Source of the DNA: Streptomyces mobaraensis NBRC 13819 = DSM 40847
GTDB taxonomy: Bacteria > Actinomycetota > Actinomycetes > Streptomycetales > Streptomycetaceae
Direction of reading: 5' to 3'
Length of the DNA stretch: 64,000 bases
NCBI RefSeq assembly: GCF_017916255.1
Contig: NZ_CP072827.1
Location: forward strand, 5,915,501 to 5,979,500
The translations under genes were made by a program, and so were the position numbers. Shown here in pieces: positions 9,152-21,651 of the stretch. Position 1 is the first letter of the stretch. Each line of letters opens with the position of its first letter. The notes below the pieces were generated by a model, which was not told the origin of the DNA, searched no databases, and saw nothing but the letters and a program-made list of their open reading frames with translations.

Positions 9152-9952
9152 TCAGGAGACCCCTCGGTGTGCTGCCCACGCCTGGGCTGCGTCCGCGAGT
9201 GCCTGCAACCACTTCTCCTGGGGGTGCTGGGCGGCGATGGCCCGGTGCATGCGCAGGTCGGCTGCGGCAAACGCGTCAATCGCCTTCGTATCCGCGTGAG
9301 CGAACGCGGTGCAGCGGGCCGCCCATCCCTCCGCCGACCGCGGGCTGTGGCCGGCGGAGACCAGTTGCACGACGAAACAGGCCGGGTCGATAAACGGGGC
9401 CCCGCGAGTGGGCCATGACCAGTCGATCAGCCACGAACCAGCATCCCCGACCATCACGTTGGACGGGTTGATGTCGGTGTGCAGTAGAGCGTCACCGCGG
9501 AAGAACGCCAACTCGTCTTCGCTTCTCACGTAGGCGTCCCATCGTTCTTCCTTCCAGTTCCGCGCTGCGCTGGGTGGCGCCAGGCTCGCCGCACGGTTGA
9601 GGAGGTCCACGGCGATGGGTAGGTCCGCCGAACCGGGTTCGAAGTCCGCGTCACGTCCCTCGATGACTTCGAACCCAAGAATGATCCACCCGGCGTCATC
9701 CCCTACGACACTCCACAGCACCCGGGGTGAGAGGGATTGTACGTACGGGTTGACCGCCCACTCCCGGAGAATGGAGTCTCGTCGCCCTCCTGGCCTATTG
9801 ATCATGGCCTTGACGAAGAACGGCCCCATCTCGCTGTCGATGACCGCAGCGAAGTCGGTGGTGAAACCCTGCTTCGGGACATGGACTCGCCCGACTTCAC
9901 CCGTGTATGGGTGGATGAGTTGCCGGAAATGCCCGTCGGGCAGCTCAGTCAA
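9152..9952 (-). CDS. Aminoglycoside phosphotransferase/kinase-fold protein
   Basis: A 266-residue protein of the APH/choline-kinase fold. HTDINPSN (about residue 165) is the catalytic HxDxxxxN loop and IDWSWP (about 181) is the metal-binding DxD/DFG-equivalent. The N-terminal lobe has FFVKAM (probable ATP-anchoring Lys) and a Glu in REWAVN. It starts at TTG 9952 with a strong AAGGGG ribosome site 5 nt upstream, 21 bp after the radical SAM gene, so the two form an operon. The substrate is not predictable; cytosolic small-molecule or peptide phosphorylation is the family role. Codon use is less GC-extreme than the flanks, suggesting acquisition. Confidence 0.8.
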   Translation of the reverse strand: MTELPDGHFRQLIHPYTGEVGRVHVPKQGFTTDFAAVIDSEMGPFFVKAMINRPGGRRDSILREWAVNPYVQSLSPRVLWSVVGDDAGWIILGFEVIEGRDADFEPGSADLPIAVDLLNRAASLAPPSAARNWKEERWDAYVRSEDELAFFRGDALLHTDINPSNVMVGDAGSWLIDWSWPTRGAPFIDPACFVVQLVSAGHSPRSAEGWAARCTAFAHADTKAIDAFAAADLRMHRAIAAQHPQEKWLQALADAAQAWAAHRGVS

Positions 9953-9973: not shown

Positions 9974-10888
9974 TCAGAACCTAGGCCGGCATGTAGTCGG
10001 CGTTCCCAAGCGGCACGCCGAGTTTGGTTCGCACCTCGGGTCGCACGGGTTCTTCGGGACGCAGTCCGGTCGGCACTCCTGGTTGTCCTTGTCCTTGTCC
10101 TTGTTCCCCCACCCCCAGACCTCACGGAGGGAGGAAACGGCCTCGGACAGTTCGGGGCTGTTCAGGATAGAGGTCAGCGGGGCGTCGTGGACGTTGCCGA
10201 CACCCATCCAGGTCGAGAAGACGCAAGGGGCGACGGTGCCGGACGGGTCGACCACAGCCCGCCCGTCACCGCAACCGCCGCACAGGTTGGCTGCGTCCGG
10301 CTCCTGCTCCCCGCAGGCCCGTCCGAACTCGCGGATGCGGTCGGCTCCGATCCGGCTGACGCCGATCGACCTCAGGTCGGCCTTGGCCTCTTCGATGGCC
10401 TCCGAGTCGATTCCGACGATGCCCACTCGGATCGGGATGCCCAGGGCGAGCGCCTTGACGATGTTCGCGCGCGTCCTGGCGTGACTCGGGCGACCGGTGA
10501 CCTTGTCGTGGTCCGGCGCCTTGCGCGAGTAGTAGGACGTTGCGAGGGACAGCCTTTCGCGCTGGAACAGGCGCCAGTGGACCGGCGAGACGTGGACGAG
10601 GTTGCTGTACACCTCGACGGCCAGACCGATGGTCAGGGCGTGGTCCACCAGCTCCGCGAAGTGCGGGTGCATGGACGGCTCGCCGCCGATGAACTGGACG
10701 TCGCGGACGCCGCCGGCAGAGGCCTGGTCAAGGACGCCGAGCCAGTCTTCACGGGACATGTCCCCGTGCGAACCGTCCGGCCCCGACGCGTTGTAACAGT
10801 GCAAACAAGAGAGCTGGCACTTACGCGTCAGATCCAGCCACAGAAATTCTACGTTGGTTTGTTCGATCGCTAACGCTTCGGTGGTCAC
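9974..10888 (-). CDS. Radical SAM protein with SPASM-like region and Cys-Pro tail
   Basis: A 304-residue enzyme. CQLSCLHC (Cys24, 28, 31) is the CxxxCxxC motif for the SAM-binding [4Fe-4S] cluster, followed by FIGGEPSMHP (GGEP motif). A second Cys group, CGGCGDG plus APCVFS (about 210-230), resembles a SPASM/twitch auxiliary-cluster site. The last 35 residues carry six more Cys in CxP-like spacing (CRPDCVP, CDPRCEP, ACRLG, TCRPRF). GTG 10888 was chosen for the GGGCAGG site upstream; the longer open frame lacks similarity. Codon 6 (10873-10871) is TTA, implying bldA control. It is followed by the kinase-fold gene. RiPP maturation is the likeliest family role, but no certain precursor is seen. 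Confidence 0.8.
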   Translation of the reverse strand: MTTEALAIEQTNVEFLWLDLTRKCQLSCLHCYNASGPDGSHGDMSREDWLGVLDQASAGGVRDVQFIGGEPSMHPHFAELVDHALTIGLAVEVYSNLVHVSPVHWRLFQRERLSLATSYYSRKAPDHDKVTGRPSHARTRANIVKALALGIPIRVGIVGIDSEAIEEAKADLRSIGVSRIGADRIREFGRACGEQEPDAANLCGGCGDGRAVVDPSGTVAPCVFSTWMGVGNVHDAPLTSILNSPELSEAVSSLREVWGWGNKDKDKDNQECRPDCVPKNPCDPRCEPNSACRLGTPTTCRPRF

Positions 10889-11163
10889 TGACCTGCCCTT
10901 CCGCTCGTTGGTGTTTACGGCGCAGCCCTGGTTTTCTGCGCCGTTGCGCGATTGGACGGTGCACCGGTCGGGTTGGAGTTCAGCCACGAGCCAGCCGGAC
11001 GGGCAACGTGGCCCGCTCACGACGACGCCACGGCATTGCGCACCGTCAGTGCCGCCGTAGAGGCCATCGCGCCACCCCTTCCGCAGCCATCCGATCTCGT
11101 CCCGCTCCCGGAGGGAGCGGTGGCTTGTGCGGGCCCACACGATCGCCGCGACCAGTTTGAGCA

Positions 11164-11186
11164 AAACGGGAGGGCCCTTCCCGTTT
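11164..11186 (-). terminator. Hairpin with T-run
   Basis: AAACGGGA and TCCCGTTT arms form an 8-bp stem around a 7-nt GGGCCCT loop. Read on the minus strand it ends in CCCGTTTTGC, a short T-run. It lies about 105 bp past the micro-cassette and about 275 bp before the radical SAM start, so it could be a terminator or a leader attenuator. Confidence 0.5.
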
Positions 11187-11236
11187 CGGCAAGCCTGAGC
11201 TCTCGACGAAGCGGGGCCCCGCCTGCCGGGCGATCT

Positions 11237-11260
11237 CCAGCGGAGTGAGGAGACCGCTGG
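11237..11260 (-). terminator. Hairpin after the micro-cassette
   Basis: CCAGCGG (11237-11243) and CCGCTGG (11254-11260) form a 7-bp stem with a 10-nt loop, about 30 bp past the last gene of the leftward micro-cassette. It is probably that operon's terminator. Confidence 0.5.
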
Positions 11261-11291
11261 CGCTACCCGCGGCAGCCGGGAGCTCAAGGAC

Positions 11292-11516
11292 TTAGCGGCT
11301 CGTCAAGCCGCTCGGCCGGCAGTGGCTCCCCAGGCCCCGCAACAGCTCGTCGTGCTCGTTTCTGAGCGCCGAGAGGTGGAAGTTGTCCTCTGCCTTCTCG
11401 ACCGCGCACAACTCCACCTGCAACTCCCTGAGTTCGCTCCGTTTGAGGTCACAGGGGATGCAGGCGGAGCTGGGCGACGTCCAGGGGCCGCTGCTGTGCG
11501 GCATCGAACAGCTCAT
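11292..11516 (-). CDS. Small CxPC protein with predicted coiled coil (cassette gene C, copy 1)
   Basis: A 74-residue protein. An N-terminal Ser/Pro-rich stretch leads to CIPCDLKRSELRELQ and a charged helical segment (ELCAVEKAEDNFHLSALR) that looks like a coiled coil. Its ATG overlaps the stop of the upstream gene (ATGA at 11513-11516), showing translational coupling. A clear paralogue is at 21051-21296 in the same gene order, which is the main reason to believe this tiny gene is real. The CxPC pair could bind metal or form a disulfide. Function is unknown. Confidence 0.6.
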   Translation of the reverse strand: MSCSMPHSSGPWTSPSSACIPCDLKRSELRELQVELCAVEKAEDNFHLSALRNEHDELLRGLGSHCRPSGLTSR

Positions 11517-13560: not shown

Positions 13561-13740
13561 TCAGCGGGCGGAGTGAGCCGGGTGGTCGGCGGTGTCGAGG
13601 TCGTCGGGGCGACCGTCGTCGCGTCCGGGTTCTCCCGGAGGACGGTGCCGGCCTACGCCGCCCGCCGCCCGCCGCCCGCGGACCCGGGGTGTCGGGGCGG
13701 CCTCGGCATCGGCCCCGTCCGGCTCCCGCCCCCGTGTCAT
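13561..13740 (-). CDS. Small hydrophilic protein at the end of the protease operon
   Basis: A 59-residue, highly charged protein rich in Arg, Asp, Gly and Pro (MTRGREPDGADAEAAP, then GRHRPPGEPGRDDGRPDD) and likely disordered. Its ATG overlaps the stop of the presenilin-like gene (ATGA at 13737-13740), so it would be translationally coupled as the fourth operon gene. Composition alone would not justify a call; the overlap and the 93-bp gap to the XRE regulator do. It may be an accessory tail or a chance ORF. Confidence 0.4.
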   Translation of the reverse strand: MTRGREPDGADAEAAPTPRVRGRRAAGGVGRHRPPGEPGRDDGRPDDLDTADHPAHSAR

Positions 13741-14654
13741 CGCGCCGCCTCGCCCAGGGCGCGGCCCGGGCCGGCCGCCGCTCTCGGGGCTCCGATCCGC
13801 TCGCGGTGGAAGGCGATGTCGGCCATTCGCCGTTCCGGGCCCCGGCGGCGCAGGAGCAGATGGCCGGCGAAGGCCGCCGGGCCGAAGAACACCTGGGCGG
13901 GGATCAGCGCCGCGGCGTGCCCGGTGACCGCGCCGACGATGTGCAGGGCGGCCACCGGGGCCACGCCGCCGAAGAGGGCGACCAGCACGAGCCCGGTGCG
14001 CAGTCCCGCCTTCCCGTACGCCTTGTAGGCGGCGGTGGTGAAGAGGGCGTAGGCCAGCAGGTCGCCCATGCCGAGCACGGCGCCGAGGCCCTCCCCGACG
14101 CGCAGCCCGGCCGCGGGGGCGAAGGGGTAGCCCTGGACCGCGTCGGACAGTTCCTCGGTCAGGGGGACGACCCAGGCGAAGAACGCGTCGTAGGCGGTGA
14201 GCGCGAGGAGGAACCACGCGACGTTCCTCAGCCGCATCCCGCCCTGGACGTTGATGTTGGTGGCGGAGATGACGACCAGGCCGACGACGCAGCTGTTGGC
14301 GATCCAGTACGGCGCGGCGGTGTCGCCGAAGGCGAGGTGGGCGCCGAGCACGGCCGCGATCAGCGCGGCGATCAGTGCCCAGCGCAGCCTTCCGTCGCCG
14401 ATGACGGGCTGGTAGCCGACGGACAGCCCGCCCGCGAAGGCCGCCGCGAGCACCGCCGGCAGGACCGGGCCGGGCAGCGTCAGGTAGAGGTACGGCAGCG
14501 CCAGGACGAAGCCCATCATCAGGAAGATGTCGGTGCCGTTGAAGACGCCGATCGGCGGCCTGGGGGTGCGGACGGTGCGGAAGTAGCCGACGGCGCCGAC
14601 GCACACCGCGCATGCCAGGGCGCAGCTGACCGCGAGTTGGAAGAAGACCGTCAT
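13737..14654 (-). CDS. Presenilin/signal-peptide-peptidase-like intramembrane aspartyl protease
   Basis: A 305-residue polytopic membrane protein with about eight or nine hydrophobic segments. The three marks of GxGD aspartyl proteases are present in order: YDAFFAW with Tyr155-Asp156, LGMGDLLAY with Asp198 in GxGD, and IPAQVFF (Pro252-Ala253) at the PAL position. The two Asp would form the intramembrane catalytic dyad that cleaves transmembrane or signal-like peptides. Its ATG overlaps the stop of the adenylating-enzyme gene (ATGA at 14651-14654). The operon also encodes a 29-residue signal-like peptide, a natural candidate substrate. The family call rests on motifs and topology; activity is inferred. 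Confidence 0.7.
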   Translation of the reverse strand: MTVFFQLAVSCALACAVCVGAVGYFRTVRTPRPPIGVFNGTDIFLMMGFVLALPYLYLTLPGPVLPAVLAAAFAGGLSVGYQPVIGDGRLRWALIAALIAAVLGAHLAFGDTAAPYWIANSCVVGLVVISATNINVQGGMRLRNVAWFLLALTAYDAFFAWVVPLTEELSDAVQGYPFAPAAGLRVGEGLGAVLGMGDLLAYALFTTAAYKAYGKAGLRTGLVLVALFGGVAPVAALHIVGAVTGHAAALIPAQVFFGPAAFAGHLLLRRRGPERRMADIAFHRERIGAPRAAAGPGRALGEAAR

Positions 14655-16063
14655 GCGTGGCTCCGGGTGAAGGTGTGCTCCAGCAGGTCGCAGCGGAGCG
14701 GAAAGCGCAGCGCCGCTTTCGTGTCGGCCAGCGGCAGGACGGTGACGTCGGCGTCGATGCCCTCGGCCCGCAGCCGTTCGGTCACGTCGGCCGCGCCGAT
14801 TTCCCTGGAGGCGACCTCCACGCGCAGCCGGCCTTGGGCGGTGACCTCGGCCCGGTGGCGCAGCGGCCAGGGCAGGCCGGGGGTGCCGTCCAGCGCCTCC
14901 ACGATGTCGCGCGGGGTGACGACGGCGTCGGCGGTGCGGTACAGCTGTCCGGCCTTGCCGAGGATGTGGGAGACCGCGGGGACCGAGGCGAGTTCGCAGG
15001 CGGGTTCGCCGTCCAGGGTGCGGACCACGTCACCGGTGTTGTACCGCAGGACGGGCATGCACTCCCGGTAGGGGAAGTACGGGGTGACCGTCAGCTCGCC
15101 GAGGCGGCCGGGCCCGGCGGGCTCGCCCGTCTCCAGGTCGAGGACCTCGGTGTACCCCATGTTGGGGTCGATGTGCAGGTGACGGTGGCTACAGGTCCGG
15201 CCGCTGACGGGCAGCAGCTCGGTCATCCCGAAGGAGTCACCGACGGTGCGTGCGCCGAAGGTCTCGCGGAAGGCGGCCTCCAGGTTGCGCGACAGCATCT
15301 CCCCTCCCGCGTAGACCGCGCGCAGCCCGAAGTCCCGTGGCCCGTAACCGCGTTCGCGGACGACGGTCACCATGCGGGCGAGGTAGCTGGGATTGCCGGT
15401 GAGCACCGTCGGCCGGGGGCCGGAGCGGCCGAGCAGGTGCTCGACGGACTCCTCGGGCGGGACCTGTCCCACGACGTGACAGGCGGCGTTGGCGAGGCGG
15501 CACACCTCGACGTCCTCCTGCACGGCGGCGGTCGCCCGCGAGCTGAGGTTGATCTGCATCCGGTCGCCGGGCCCGAGGTCGCCGCGGAGTACCAGGGACA
15601 GCGCGATCAGAGCGGGCCACAGCTCCATCTCGTAGCGGGAGAGCCAGACCTGGACCGGCGCGCCGGTGGTCCCGGTGGTCTGTGTCACCAGGTACGGGGC
15701 GCTGCAGAGGAAGTCGGCGGGGCGGGCGATCAGATCGGCCTTGCGCGTCACCGGGATGCGGGTGAGCGTCTCGGTCGTGATACCGGCCGGGTCCGTCCCG
15801 GCGAGCCGTTCCCGGTAGAAGGGCGAGCGCGTGGCGAGCCTGCGCACGGTGCGCTGGAGCGCCCGGTTCTGCAGGTCGCGGCGCTCGGCCGGATCGGTGA
15901 ACGGTCCGTCGGCCAGCTCGTCGACGTCGTCGCCGAGCGAGCCGAACTCCTCCAGCGTGACGAGCGCGTCGGCGACCAGCCGTTCCACGGCCCGTACGTT
16001 CAGCCGCCGGCCGAACACCATGGCCATGGCCACCCGCACCTGCCGGACAGCCGTCTCCAGCAC
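14651..16063 (-). CDS. Phenylacetate-CoA ligase/LuxE-like adenylate-forming enzyme
   Basis: A 470-residue member of the PaaK/LuxE branch of adenylating enzymes. It has the phosphate-binding loop TTGTTGAPVQV (about residues 130-140), GNPSYLARM, YAGGEMLS, DSFGMTELLP (the A5-like ATP motif) and LRYNTGDVV (the Asp that binds ribose). A short C-terminal domain follows. Such enzymes activate a carboxylate as acyl-AMP and pass it to CoA, a protein Cys or an amine. GTG 16063 has GAGGGAGG upstream. It is the second gene after the 29-residue peptide and overlaps the presenilin-like gene by 4 bp. The acyl or peptide substrate is unknown; the peptide's C-terminus or Cys is an attractive guess. Confidence 0.8.
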   Translation of the reverse strand: MLETAVRQVRVAMAMVFGRRLNVRAVERLVADALVTLEEFGSLGDDVDELADGPFTDPAERRDLQNRALQRTVRRLATRSPFYRERLAGTDPAGITTETLTRIPVTRKADLIARPADFLCSAPYLVTQTTGTTGAPVQVWLSRYEMELWPALIALSLVLRGDLGPGDRMQINLSSRATAAVQEDVEVCRLANAACHVVGQVPPEESVEHLLGRSGPRPTVLTGNPSYLARMVTVVRERGYGPRDFGLRAVYAGGEMLSRNLEAAFRETFGARTVGDSFGMTELLPVSGRTCSHRHLHIDPNMGYTEVLDLETGEPAGPGRLGELTVTPYFPYRECMPVLRYNTGDVVRTLDGEPACELASVPAVSHILGKAGQLYRTADAVVTPRDIVEALDGTPGLPWPLRHRAEVTAQGRLRVEVASREIGAADVTERLRAEGIDADVTVLPLADTKAALRFPLRCDLLEHTFTRSHA

Positions 16064-16095
16064 TGATGCCTCCCTCGCACCTCGAACAGGACGAA

Positions 16096-16125
16096 GGGGT
16101 GGGGGCGGCGGACCGCCCCCACCCC
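16096..16125 (-). terminator. Strong hairpin between peptide gene and ligase gene
   Basis: Perfect 13-bp stem: GGGGTGGGGGCGG (16096-16108) and CCGCCCCCACCCC (16113-16125) with a 4-nt loop. It lies 11 bp past the peptide stop and 32 bp before the ligase start. A partial terminator or 3'-stabiliser here would make peptide mRNA exceed enzyme mRNA, as in many precursor-peptide operons. Confidence 0.7.
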
Positions 16126-16136
16126 CGTGATGTACG

Positions 16137-16226
16137 TCAGCTGGCGGAACAAGTGCTGAAGAAGACGGCCGTCATCGCGCCCACGACGTACTTGAACTGC
16201 TTCGCGCTCGACTTGATGGCGCTCAT
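16137..16226 (-). CDS. 29-residue signal-like peptide, candidate precursor
   Basis: A very short gene with an excellent ribosome site (AGGGGAGG, 5 nt before ATG 16226). The product starts MSAIKSSAKQFK (four basic residues), continues with the hydrophobic core YVVGAMTAVFF and ends STCSAS with one Cys four residues from the C-terminus. It thus looks like a bare signal peptide or pheromone/RiPP precursor. It heads an operon with an adenylating enzyme and a presenilin-like protease, and a 13-bp hairpin follows directly. Possible roles are a secreted signal released by intramembrane cleavage, or a modified peptide. I do not recognise a described family. Confidence 0.65.
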   Translation of the reverse strand: MSAIKSSAKQFKYVVGAMTAVFFSTCSAS

Positions 16227-16643
16227 AAGTGCCTCCCCTGTTTGCTGCGAGTGGACGTCCGCTCGACTCCCGCGGGAGTACCGGCGTTCCGCCCCTTGAC
16301 GACAGACACAGTGGCGCGACCACCGCGCACGGGCAATGATCGGGTCCATTCAGCGGACCGCGGACCGAGGGGGAAACGCGACCGGGGGAGGGCCGTGGGC
16401 CTGCTGTGCACTTCGTCACCGGCGGAGGGCGTCACTGTGCAGACGTTTACTGTTCATCGAGCGGAGGCTGAAGTAGGTTCACCGCTGCCGGTGTTCGAGA
16501 ACAAGGCGACGCAGCGCTGGCATTGGGCCCGTTCGCCGAGCCGGACGGGCGGCGTGCCGCGTCGACGACCACCAGGCGAAGGGTTCGAACGGGGGAGTTG
16601 TGGGGCCGTCCGATCGACGGCCCGGCATGAGAGGGGGACCCTC
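16227..16643. promoter_or_regulatory. Divergent control region with 14-bp palindrome
   Basis: A 417-bp region between the leftward peptide operon and the rightward IclR gene. A perfect palindrome, ACTCCCGCGGGAGT (16266-16279), lies 40 bp upstream of the peptide start and is a good operator candidate for the neighbouring IclR protein. No consensus promoter is obvious for either gene. Confidence 0.5.
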
Positions 16644-17438
16644 ATGGCGAGATCCGGCGCTGAGGGACGCGGCGTGCTGGAAGGCGCGTTCGCACTCATG
16701 GAGGTACTCGCGCACGACGACGAGGTGGGGCTGACCCGGCTGGCGAGCGACGCCGCGCTGCCGAAGGCCACCGCCCACCGGCTGCTCGGGCAGTTGGTCG
16801 CGCTGGGCGCGGTGCAGAGTCACGAAGGCCGCTACCGGCTGGGCCCGCGGACGTTTCGGCTCGGGCAGTCCTGGCATCCGGCGCGCGCGCTGCGCGCCGC
16901 CTCGGCCCGGCCGTTGCGGGAACTCGCGGCGCTCAACGGTGAGGTGAGCCTGAGCCTGTCGGTGCCCGAAGGCGGACACATCATCGTCGTCGGGGGCATG
17001 CGGGGCGAGGTGGGCGAGGTCTTCCCGCTGCGCTCCGGGGCCGTCCTGCCGCCCGGCAGCGCGGCCGAACTGGTCCTGGCGGCGGCCGGCCCGGTGCCGG
17101 GGCGGCCCGCGGGGTGGACGGAGGCCGCCTGGGCGCGTGAGGTCGCGCGGATTCGGGAGCGGGGGCTCGCGTTCGACTACGAGCAGTGCGTGGAGTCGCT
17201 GTCGTGCGTGGCGGCTCCGGTGCACTCGGCGTCCGGCCAGGTGGTGGCCGCCGTCGCGGTGACCGCCCTGGACGCGAAGCTGATCCCTCCGCTGTGCGAC
17301 GCCGTGAGCCGTGCGGCGTCGGTGATCAGCGGCAGGCTGGCCCGCCTGCCGGAGCCCGCACCCAGGCCCCGCAGGGCCGGGCCGGCCCCGAACCGGGCCG
17401 TGAAGAGCTTAGCGGGCGCGGCCGGTCGAGGCCGCTGA
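16644..17438 (+). CDS. IclR-family transcriptional regulator
   Basis: A 264-residue protein. The N-terminal winged HTH (VGLTRLASDAALPKATAHRL) and the C-terminal IclR effector domain (about residues 85-240: GMRGEVGEVFPLRSGAVLP, CVESLSCVAAPVHS) are both present. It ends in a basic Pro/Arg-rich tail. ATG 16644 follows GAGGGGG. Codon 256 (17409-17411) is TTA, so full-length synthesis should need the bldA tRNA. It is divergent from the peptide/ligase/protease operon across a palindrome-containing region, making it the likely regulator of that operon. Confidence 0.85.
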   Translation: MARSGAEGRGVLEGAFALMEVLAHDDEVGLTRLASDAALPKATAHRLLGQLVALGAVQSHEGRYRLGPRTFRLGQSWHPARALRAASARPLRELAALNGEVSLSLSVPEGGHIIVVGGMRGEVGEVFPLRSGAVLPPGSAAELVLAAAGPVPGRPAGWTEAAWAREVARIRERGLAFDYEQCVESLSCVAAPVHSASGQVVAAVAVTALDAKLIPPLCDAVSRAASVISGRLARLPEPAPRPRRAGPAPNRAVKSLAGAAGRGR

Positions 17439-21050: not shown

Positions 21051-21296
21051 TCAGGGCGCGGCCCGTCGCGCGTGACCGTCGCGGTGGCGGCGCAGGGCTT
21101 CGAGCCGCTCGTCGTGCTCGTGCCGCAGGAGCGCGACACGGCTGCCGTCCTCTCGGCGCTCGGCGGCCCGCAACTCCACTTCCAGGGCGCGGAGCTCGCC
21201 CTCGTGGATCTCGCAGGGCGGGCACGGCGTCGGTGTGCGCGACGCGCGGGGTCCGCCGCTGTGCGGCAAGAGGATCGGGAGTGAGGGGTGGTTCAT
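21051..21296 (-). CDS. Small CxPC protein with predicted coiled coil (cassette gene C, copy 2)
   Basis: An 81-residue paralogue of the protein at 11292-11516. Both share LPHS/MPHS, a CxPC pair (here CPPCEIHEGELRALEVEL) and a charged helix (RVALLRHEHDERLEALRR). ATG 21296 overlaps the previous stop (ATGA). The conserved part is helical and acidic-basic alternating, suggesting a coiled coil. It ends 5 bp from the convergent SDR gene. Function is unknown. Confidence 0.6.
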   Translation of the reverse strand: MNHPSLPILLPHSGGPRASRTPTPCPPCEIHEGELRALEVELRAAERREDGSRVALLRHEHDERLEALRRHRDGHARRAAP

Positions 21297-21466
21297 CGGG
21301 TCCTCGGGTGACAGGTGGGACAGGAACACGGCGGAAAGCGGAGCGGCGAGTCCGGCGGGCGGTCGGCGCGGGGGAGGTGCGTGACCGTGCTCCCGTACGT
21401 CCGGCCGCCGTCCCTGGAGACGCGCAGCGTCAGCCGGGAACGCGGCTCCTTCCGCCCGGCGCTCAC
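21293..21466 (-). CDS. Small Arg-rich protein with CxCPxC motif (cassette gene B, copy 2)
   Basis: A 57-residue paralogue of the protein at 11513-11683: SRLTLRVSRDGGRTYGS, THLPRADRPPDSPLR and PPCSCPTCHP. The C-terminal CxCPxC could hold a metal. GTG 21466 overlaps the preceding TGA (GTGA at 21463-21466), exactly as in copy 1. Function is unknown. Confidence 0.6.
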   Translation of the reverse strand: MSAGRKEPRSRLTLRVSRDGGRTYGSTVTHLPRADRPPDSPLRFPPCSCPTCHPRTR

Positions 21467-21651
21467 CGCCGCTCCCAGAGCCCGGCGTCCTTGAGCTCCC
21501 GCACGGTCGCGATGCGGTGGTCGTCGAACGGGCAGTCCCATTCACTTCGGCCGTCCGGTGCGCGCAGCACGATGTGCGTGTACTTCTGGCGCACCACCTG
21601 GCCGAGCCGGCCGTCCCGGGTGTCGGTGGCCCAGTTTCCGTATCTCACCAT
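21463..21651 (-). CDS. Small protein with RYGNWAxDT motif (cassette gene A, copy 2)
   Basis: A 62-residue paralogue of the protein at 11680-11868, with VRYGNWATDTRDGRLGQVV, IVLRAPDGRSEWDCP and DDHRIATVRELKDAGL. ATG 21651 heads the leftward three-gene cassette. It is divergent from an XRE-SLOG operon, with GCATAC inverted repeats between them. Function is unknown; both copies lie next to XRE regulators. Confidence 0.65.
   Translation of the reverse strand: MVRYGNWATDTRDGRLGQVVRQKYTHIVLRAPDGRSEWDCPFDDHRIATVRELKDAGLWERR

Follow-up and report, generated by a model that had tools for sequence, protein, structure and literature searches.

A stretch of 64,000 nucleotides from Streptomyces mobaraensis (contig NZ_CP072827.1, positions 5,915,501 to 5,979,500), called the window in the following, contains an operon in which a gene for a short, precursor-like peptide is followed by genes for a PaaK-type ligase and for a predicted intramembrane aspartyl protease with the presenilin/SPP fold. 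In our judgment the chances are about evenly balanced that the three genes form a self-contained pathway, in which a membrane-born peptide is inserted, cut by the protease, and modified by the ligase. All elements of the operon are located on the minus strand of this Streptomyces-type genome, in the arrangement that had been described in a first-pass annotation:

16227..16242, minus strand: ribosome-binding region AACAGGGGAGGCACTT, directly before the ATG of the peptide gene
16137..16226, minus strand: precursor-like peptide MSAIKSSAKQFKYVVGAMTAVFFSTCSAS, 29 aa, with orthologues in each of the 50 distinct loci that could be assessed, the window counted among them
16096..16125, minus strand: stem-loop with a 13-bp stem and a 4-nt loop between the peptide and ligase genes, z -4.3
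14651..16063, minus strand: PaaK-type AMP-forming ligase, 470 aa, GTG start, match to Pfam AMP-binding with E 3.3e-11
13737..14654, minus strand: predicted intramembrane aspartyl protease with nine transmembrane (TM) helices and the presenilin/SPP fold, 305 aa, with D156 (YD), D198 (GxGD), and P252 (PAQ)

In the window, ATGA overlaps join the ligase gene to the protease gene and the protease gene to a small open reading frame (ORF) downstream. A 4-nt overlap of the ligase stop with the protease start was seen in 47 of 62 locus entries, duplicates counted. The first-pass annotation had listed a 29-residue peptide gene with its ribosome site, the ligase, a multi-TM protein with protease motifs, the small ORF, and the ATGA joins, and each of these was found in place.

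The linkage of the three genes was analyzed in several genome collections. A scan of the GTDB species genomes with the protease alignment yielded 46 loci, and in 43 of them the ligase gene is located directly upstream of the protease gene. The scan upstream of the ligase revealed the peptide in 53 locus entries and, in addition, in L010, where RQFKY falls outside the pattern. After subtraction of four second copies from the same genomes (L071, L072, L074, L075), the peptide was present in all 50 assessable distinct loci, the window included; L008, L029, and L047 were not assessable due to contig ends. Most protease homologues thus co-occur with ligase and peptide, as the proposal of the annotation requires. 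The peptide distances correlate with those of the ligase (r 0.94) and the protease (r 0.91), a correlation that is confounded by shared descent. Among 199 genomes of the same genus the protease was detected in 13, and the ligase (E 4.7e-66 or better) in 12, all within those 13. The best eight ligase candidates per genome were scored, and among these the next-best match had an E of 8.9e-24 and 29% identity; none of the weaker matches listed starts before residue 24. The thirteenth genome, G019, has a partial protease match only (residues 97-302, E 4.7e-12; C1:949093-949677) with no ligase nearby, and this match is perhaps a remnant. Nine divergent protease matches were inspected with their flanks, and in eight of them a ligase (35-38% identity) precedes the protease, the ninth being G019. 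A phylum-wide search with a single clade B query was positive in one of 296 genomes, namely only that of the window. The three-gene unit is rare and patchy.

The peptides share a common build, i.e., a basic, acid-free N-region, a [KR]Y pair, a hydrophobic stretch up to the invariant F23, and a variable tail. Group A comprises 26 peptides of 28-29 residues (Streptomyces, Actinomadura, Actinoallomurus, Dactylosporangium), group B 16 peptides of 27-31 residues (Nonomuraea, Labedaea, Actinocrispum, Virgisporangium, Rugosimonospora, Cellulomonas, and metagenome-assembled genomes (MAGs) from several families), and group C eight peptides of 22-26 residues of the type MVKHYVKYAFSTLTAAMFASMV (genomes of the same genus and order). 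The columns common to the groups are K/R12 (50 of 50), Y13 (49 of 50), A20 (46 of 50), and F23 (50 of 50). In all 50 peptides, the part before Y13 is free of acidic residues and contains two or more K/R (mean 2.6), and the part beyond Y13 contains no K/R. An orientation with the N-terminus inside (N-in) is therefore expected. The segment from Y13 to the end has 15-19 residues and a mean hydropathy of 1.26. The peptide matched no Pfam family up to E 1 and no NCBIfam model, and the same was true for the peptides of the other groups. A Cys in the tail was found in 26 of 26 peptides of group A, one of 16 of group B, and none of the eight of group C. The Cys-ending peptide that had been annotated is thus a trait of group A and not a general feature, and a bacterial lipoprotein, which would carry a lipobox with an invariant Cys, was rejected on the same grounds.

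The 29-aa ORF is conserved at the codon level, as the first-pass annotation had required for its proposal, with a ratio of nonsynonymous to synonymous differences (pN/pS) of 0.23 for 13 close sequences. Before and after F23, the pN/pS was 0.13 and 0.44 in the close subset of group A, 0.29 and 0.66 in group A (18 peptides of 29 residues), 0.38 and 0.79 in group B (ten of 31 residues), and 0.41 and 1.49 in group C (seven of 22 residues); the tail values are rough, because they stem from 4-8 codons of related sequences, but the direction was equal in every set. A scan of 1.76 Mb, a sum over both strands with some sequence present twice, yielded 1844 small ORFs with a ribosome-site-like stretch. 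Of these, 50 matched the peptide motif, and all 50 were the ligase-upstream peptide, one via a second start codon. The motif was derived from these same peptides, and thus the scan is a measure of the background and not a discovery.

In the protease, Y155, D156, G195, G197, D198, and P252 were invariant in 220 of 220 homologues, and thus the two aspartates passed the conservation test that had been set for them. The predicted structure has the nine TM helices of the presenilin/SPP fold, with D156 in model helix 142-161 and D198 in model helix 196-213, so that YD and GxGD are in adjacent TM helices. The motifs annotated for the window protease, including PAQ at the PAL position, could all be read (Y155-D156, G195-x-G197-D198, P252-A253-Q254). 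At the PAL position of the 220 homologues P was always present, the second residue was A in 142, and the third was Q in 169, L in 45, M in five, and E in one. As this motif is not PAL, the protease was not filed as a member of A22. The window protease matched no Pfam family up to E 1, and its single NCBIfam match was at chance level (E 0.13). The curated profiles gave no match above cut-off for the proteases scanned (one, then two, then five), and PF06550 matched nothing in the window genome, while its control matches were in two of 14 genomes, both archaea. The protease shares the presenilin/SPP fold according to the structural model, and probably the mechanism likewise. The net charge of loops 1, 3, 5, 7, and the C-terminus was +1.2 to +3.3, and that of the N-terminus and loops 2, 4, 6, 8 was -0.8 to +0.2 (35 and 19 protease sequences). 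This pattern predicts an N-out/C-in orientation, as in SPP/SPPL and opposite to presenilin. In the available text of PMC7366577, SPP/SPPL are described as having an extracytosolic N-terminus and as accepting only type II segments with a cytosolic N-terminus, including some tail-anchored substrates with very short outer parts. The modelled fold and the predicted orientation of the protease would fit the cutting of an N-in membrane peptide.

The ligase has an AMP-binding core and the ANL/PaaK fold, i.e., the fold of PaaK-type CoA ligases and of the small-acid ligases NatL2, AjiA1, and ClxA. Its NCBIfam matches were PaaK-like models, including BagE/FevW, all below the cut-off. The ligases form a clade of their own, with members that are 34-94% identical to the window ligase in the alignment, and their first 40 or so residues form a conserved segment (model helices 2-17 and 23-40), in which Q8, R10, D32, and E39-F40-G41 are invariant. 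The enzyme had been annotated as belonging to the PaaK/LuxE branch, and fold and best matches agree with PaaK, but not with an affinity to LuxE. An assignment as LuxE acyl-protein synthetase was not supported, because the closest matches belong to the PaaK type and the LuxE family was absent from the Pfam matches of the 34 members scanned.

Folding of the region between the peptide and ligase genes in 49 loci gave a mean z of -3.5, and in 42 of these loci z was below -2. The stem-loop is probably an attenuator or processing site that holds the peptide mRNA in excess, and its position behind the peptide gene suggests an excess of peptide over the enzymes.

The three-gene unit, the predicted fold with both aspartates, the predicted orientations, the selection on the peptide, and the fold of the ligase are established here. 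The layout is that of ribosomally synthesized and post-translationally modified peptides (RiPPs), i.e., a short precursor gene with a conserved front and a variable tail beside a possible modifying enzyme and a protease. In the proposed pathway, the short peptide would be produced in excess over the enzymes, owing to the stem-loop after its gene, and would insert into the membrane with the N-terminus inside and the short tail outside. The nine-TM protease in its SPP-like orientation would then cut it inside the hydrophobic stretch, and cleavage would free the variable tail peptide to the outside and the conserved N-terminal fragment to the inside; an exporter would not be needed. The cytosolic PaaK-type ligase would activate a carboxylate and modify the peptide: either the N-terminus could be acylated, or a carboxylate could be activated at the C-terminal end, be it that of the precursor or that of the inward fragment. 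As no nucleophilic side chain is universal in the peptides, a main-chain end is a likelier target than a fixed side chain. The pathway probably yields an antimicrobial or a signal that acts outside the cell. Insertion, cleavage, and modification fit best to the strict triad, the SPP-type fold and orientation, the N-in peptide, whose body is conserved and whose tail evolves faster, the position of the peptide gene at the front with the stem-loop behind it, and the lack of a conserved exporter in the neighborhoods clustered.

Several observations weigh against this pathway. The analysis was computational and revealed no direct sign of cleavage or modification of the peptide. The hydrophobic part of the peptide, with its 15-19 residues, is marginal for a membrane span, and the tail ratios have the roughness mentioned above. 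Adenylate-forming enzymes have a C-terminal catalytic lysine. In the ligase alignment no Lys is found after residue 108 in invariant or 90% columns, R402 and R457 being invariant there, and therefore adenylation itself is unproven. The clustered neighborhoods contain no conserved transporter, receptor, or immunity gene. Lastly, the protease was found without ligase in three loci of Geodermatophilaceae MAGs, L045 and L049 (each with about 8 kb of upstream sequence) and L052 (cut by its contig end); the best ligase match in these assemblies, which are MAGs of unstated completeness, has only 26% identity, and the small-ORF motif scan did not find the peptide in these loci. The protease can thus exist alone. 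By eye, housekeeping-type genes are located beside the protease in all three. The reading frame of L049 starts like a multicopper oxidase and enters the protease at HGGMR, perhaps due to an assembly chimera.

Four other explanations were weighed. The peptide might serve the protease as a small membrane subunit or as an activator, or might anchor the ligase at the membrane, and the real substrate would lie elsewhere. The peptide is short, hydrophobic, and strictly linked, its residues 1-23 are strongly conserved, and its distances track those of both enzymes, all of which suits a partner protein. However, its tail evolves two to four times faster than the remainder, the stem-loop suggests an excess over the enzymes, and SPP works without partner proteins according to the text available of PMC2947513, and thus we regard this explanation as unlikely. 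Alternatively, the ligase could make a small molecule or a CoA thioester independent of the peptide, and peptide and protease would regulate the ligase or the release. The fold shared with PaaK-type CoA ligases and with NatL2, AjiA1, and ClxA is in line with this possibility, but this ligase type and the peptide occur together in every assessable locus, and no additional biosynthetic gene is present across all clades (clade C neighbors were judged by eye), which also makes it improbable. The third alternative, a small membrane-active toxin or bacteriocin with protease and ligase as maturation or immunity factors, would explain the basic N-region, the hydrophobic stretch, the fast-evolving tail, and the patchy spread (13 of 199 genomes of the genus, one of 296 in the phylum with one query). 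It is rather improbable, as neither an exporter nor an immunity protein is conserved in the clustered neighborhoods, and the conservation of [KR]12, Y13, and F23 in 50, 49, and 50 of 50 peptides would be uncommon in a bacteriocin. The fourth alternative, in which the ORF is a regulatory leader that controls both enzymes through an attenuator hairpin and the peptide has no other role, is very improbable, because, in spite of the classic attenuator order of short ORF, stem-loop, and enzyme genes, the first 23 residues are best conserved and the C-terminal codons least, the reverse of arrest peptides, the length varies from 22 to 31 residues, and the charge pattern suits a membrane peptide that matches the orientation of the protease.

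Two further reading frames flank the operon in the window:

13561..13740, minus strand: 59-aa ORF, overlapping the protease stop via ATGA, not conserved
16644..17438, plus strand: divergent IclR-type regulator, from neighborhood clustering

The small fourth ORF had been counted as an operon gene, but tblastn of the operon loci returned only the window's own copies and one weak match (L010, E 0.006), which did not confirm the ORF as a gene; it is probably outside the system. The IclR-type cluster has members in 14 loci, and in 11 of them, the window included, the gene is divergent and adjoins the operon; it is a possible local regulator, not a core member. In clade B, clustering revealed a plastocyanin-like protein upstream in 14 loci, and its C-terminal pattern was found in nine of 16 loci, with a stop 38-98 nt before the peptide. 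The genes of L040 and L046 were found by the pattern and missed by clustering, L046 lacks the motif His, and the protein of L035 matches Pfam Copper-bind just at the cut-off. The plastocyanin-like gene was seen before the peptide in clade B loci from L033 to L051, with a CGCCSxGSC tail in L033 and L035. This cupredoxin gene hints that in clade B the product might act as a metal ligand or a redox partner. In L064, the clade C operon is located by eye about 1 kb downstream of genes of the rpsL-rpsG-fusA-tuf type. Elsewhere in the window, a protein of the Radical SAM/SPASM type, with Pfam E-values of 8e-15 and 8e-9, is encoded at 9974-11287 (minus strand). A 74-codon ORF without a Pfam match (11292-11516) immediately precedes it and a 266-aa ORF (9152-9952) follows, and this may be a second cluster for peptide modification. 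The ORFs 11292-11516 and 21051-21545 (both minus strand) contain similar stretches by eye, LRELQVELCAVEKAEDNFHLSALRNEHDELL and LRALEVELRAAERREDGSRVALLRHEHDERL, and judged from these are apparently paralogous small proteins, 10 kb apart.

Presenilin/SPP-type proteases are studied intensely in eukaryotes, and one of them is the protease involved in Alzheimer's disease. No described equivalent of the three-gene unit, which occurs in some soil actinobacteria, was found among the literature matches listed, neither this operon nor the pairing of such a protease with an adenylating-type ligase. We put forward tentatively, and rate somewhat below an even bet, that it represents a new class of membrane-born peptide natural products or signals, in which a dedicated presenilin-fold protease frees a peptide, one end of the main chain is capped or activated by a PaaK-type ligase, and a gene shortly before that of the protease, within one operon, encodes its natural substrate. 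If this is true, the intramembrane aspartyl protease fold would be paired with an adenylating-type ligase in peptide maturation, and it would join the maturation of peptide signals and RiPPs, for which the intramembrane examples in the available parts of PMC13252029 and PMC10202637 are metalloproteases. The candidate substrate of 22-31 residues and its protease would provide intramembrane aspartyl proteolysis with a natural pair of enzyme and substrate in minimal form.

The excerpts available of earlier reports mention archaeal presenilin-like enzymes whose physiological substrates were not known (PMC2947513), aspartyl enzymes among bacterial intramembrane proteases, with eukaryotic presenilin as the example (2020 review, PMC7593790), and LspA as the bacterial aspartyl enzyme (2025 review, PMC12067869). 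Compared with the GxGD proteases SPP/SPPL, presenilin, and archaeal PSH, the window family is bacterial, is linked to a peptide and a ligase, lacks a Pfam or NCBIfam profile, and has PAQ, PxL, or PxM instead of PAL. TMcin, a membrane-made RiPP, likewise has a membrane peptide precursor that is processed by an intramembrane protease of the same cluster (accessible text of PMC13252029). In contrast to the window protease, its TmcP is a site-2 metalloprotease with an HEYMH motif, and that text describes a conserved Cys pair with a disulfide as well as escort and secretion proteins, and does not mention an adenylating ligase. The operon was not classified as a TMcin-type system, because its protease has the presenilin/SPP fold with invariant YD and GxGD and is not of the site-2 type. 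The Eep/RseP pheromones are also short hydrophobic peptides, which a cut within the membrane releases from a segment that resembles a signal peptide, but the protease is a site-2 metalloprotease, the peptides reside inside lipoprotein signal peptides, and the proposed model includes export by an ABC transporter (accessible text of PMC10202637); in the window system the peptide has an ORF to itself, the protease has an aspartyl-type fold, and a ligase is present. In comparison with the PaaK-type ligases NatL2, AjiA1, ClxA, and BagE/FevW, the window ligase stays below all NCBIfam cut-offs and forms its own clade with an extra conserved N-terminal segment and, in the alignment, no conserved C-terminal Lys, and its gene accompanies those of a peptide and a membrane protease.
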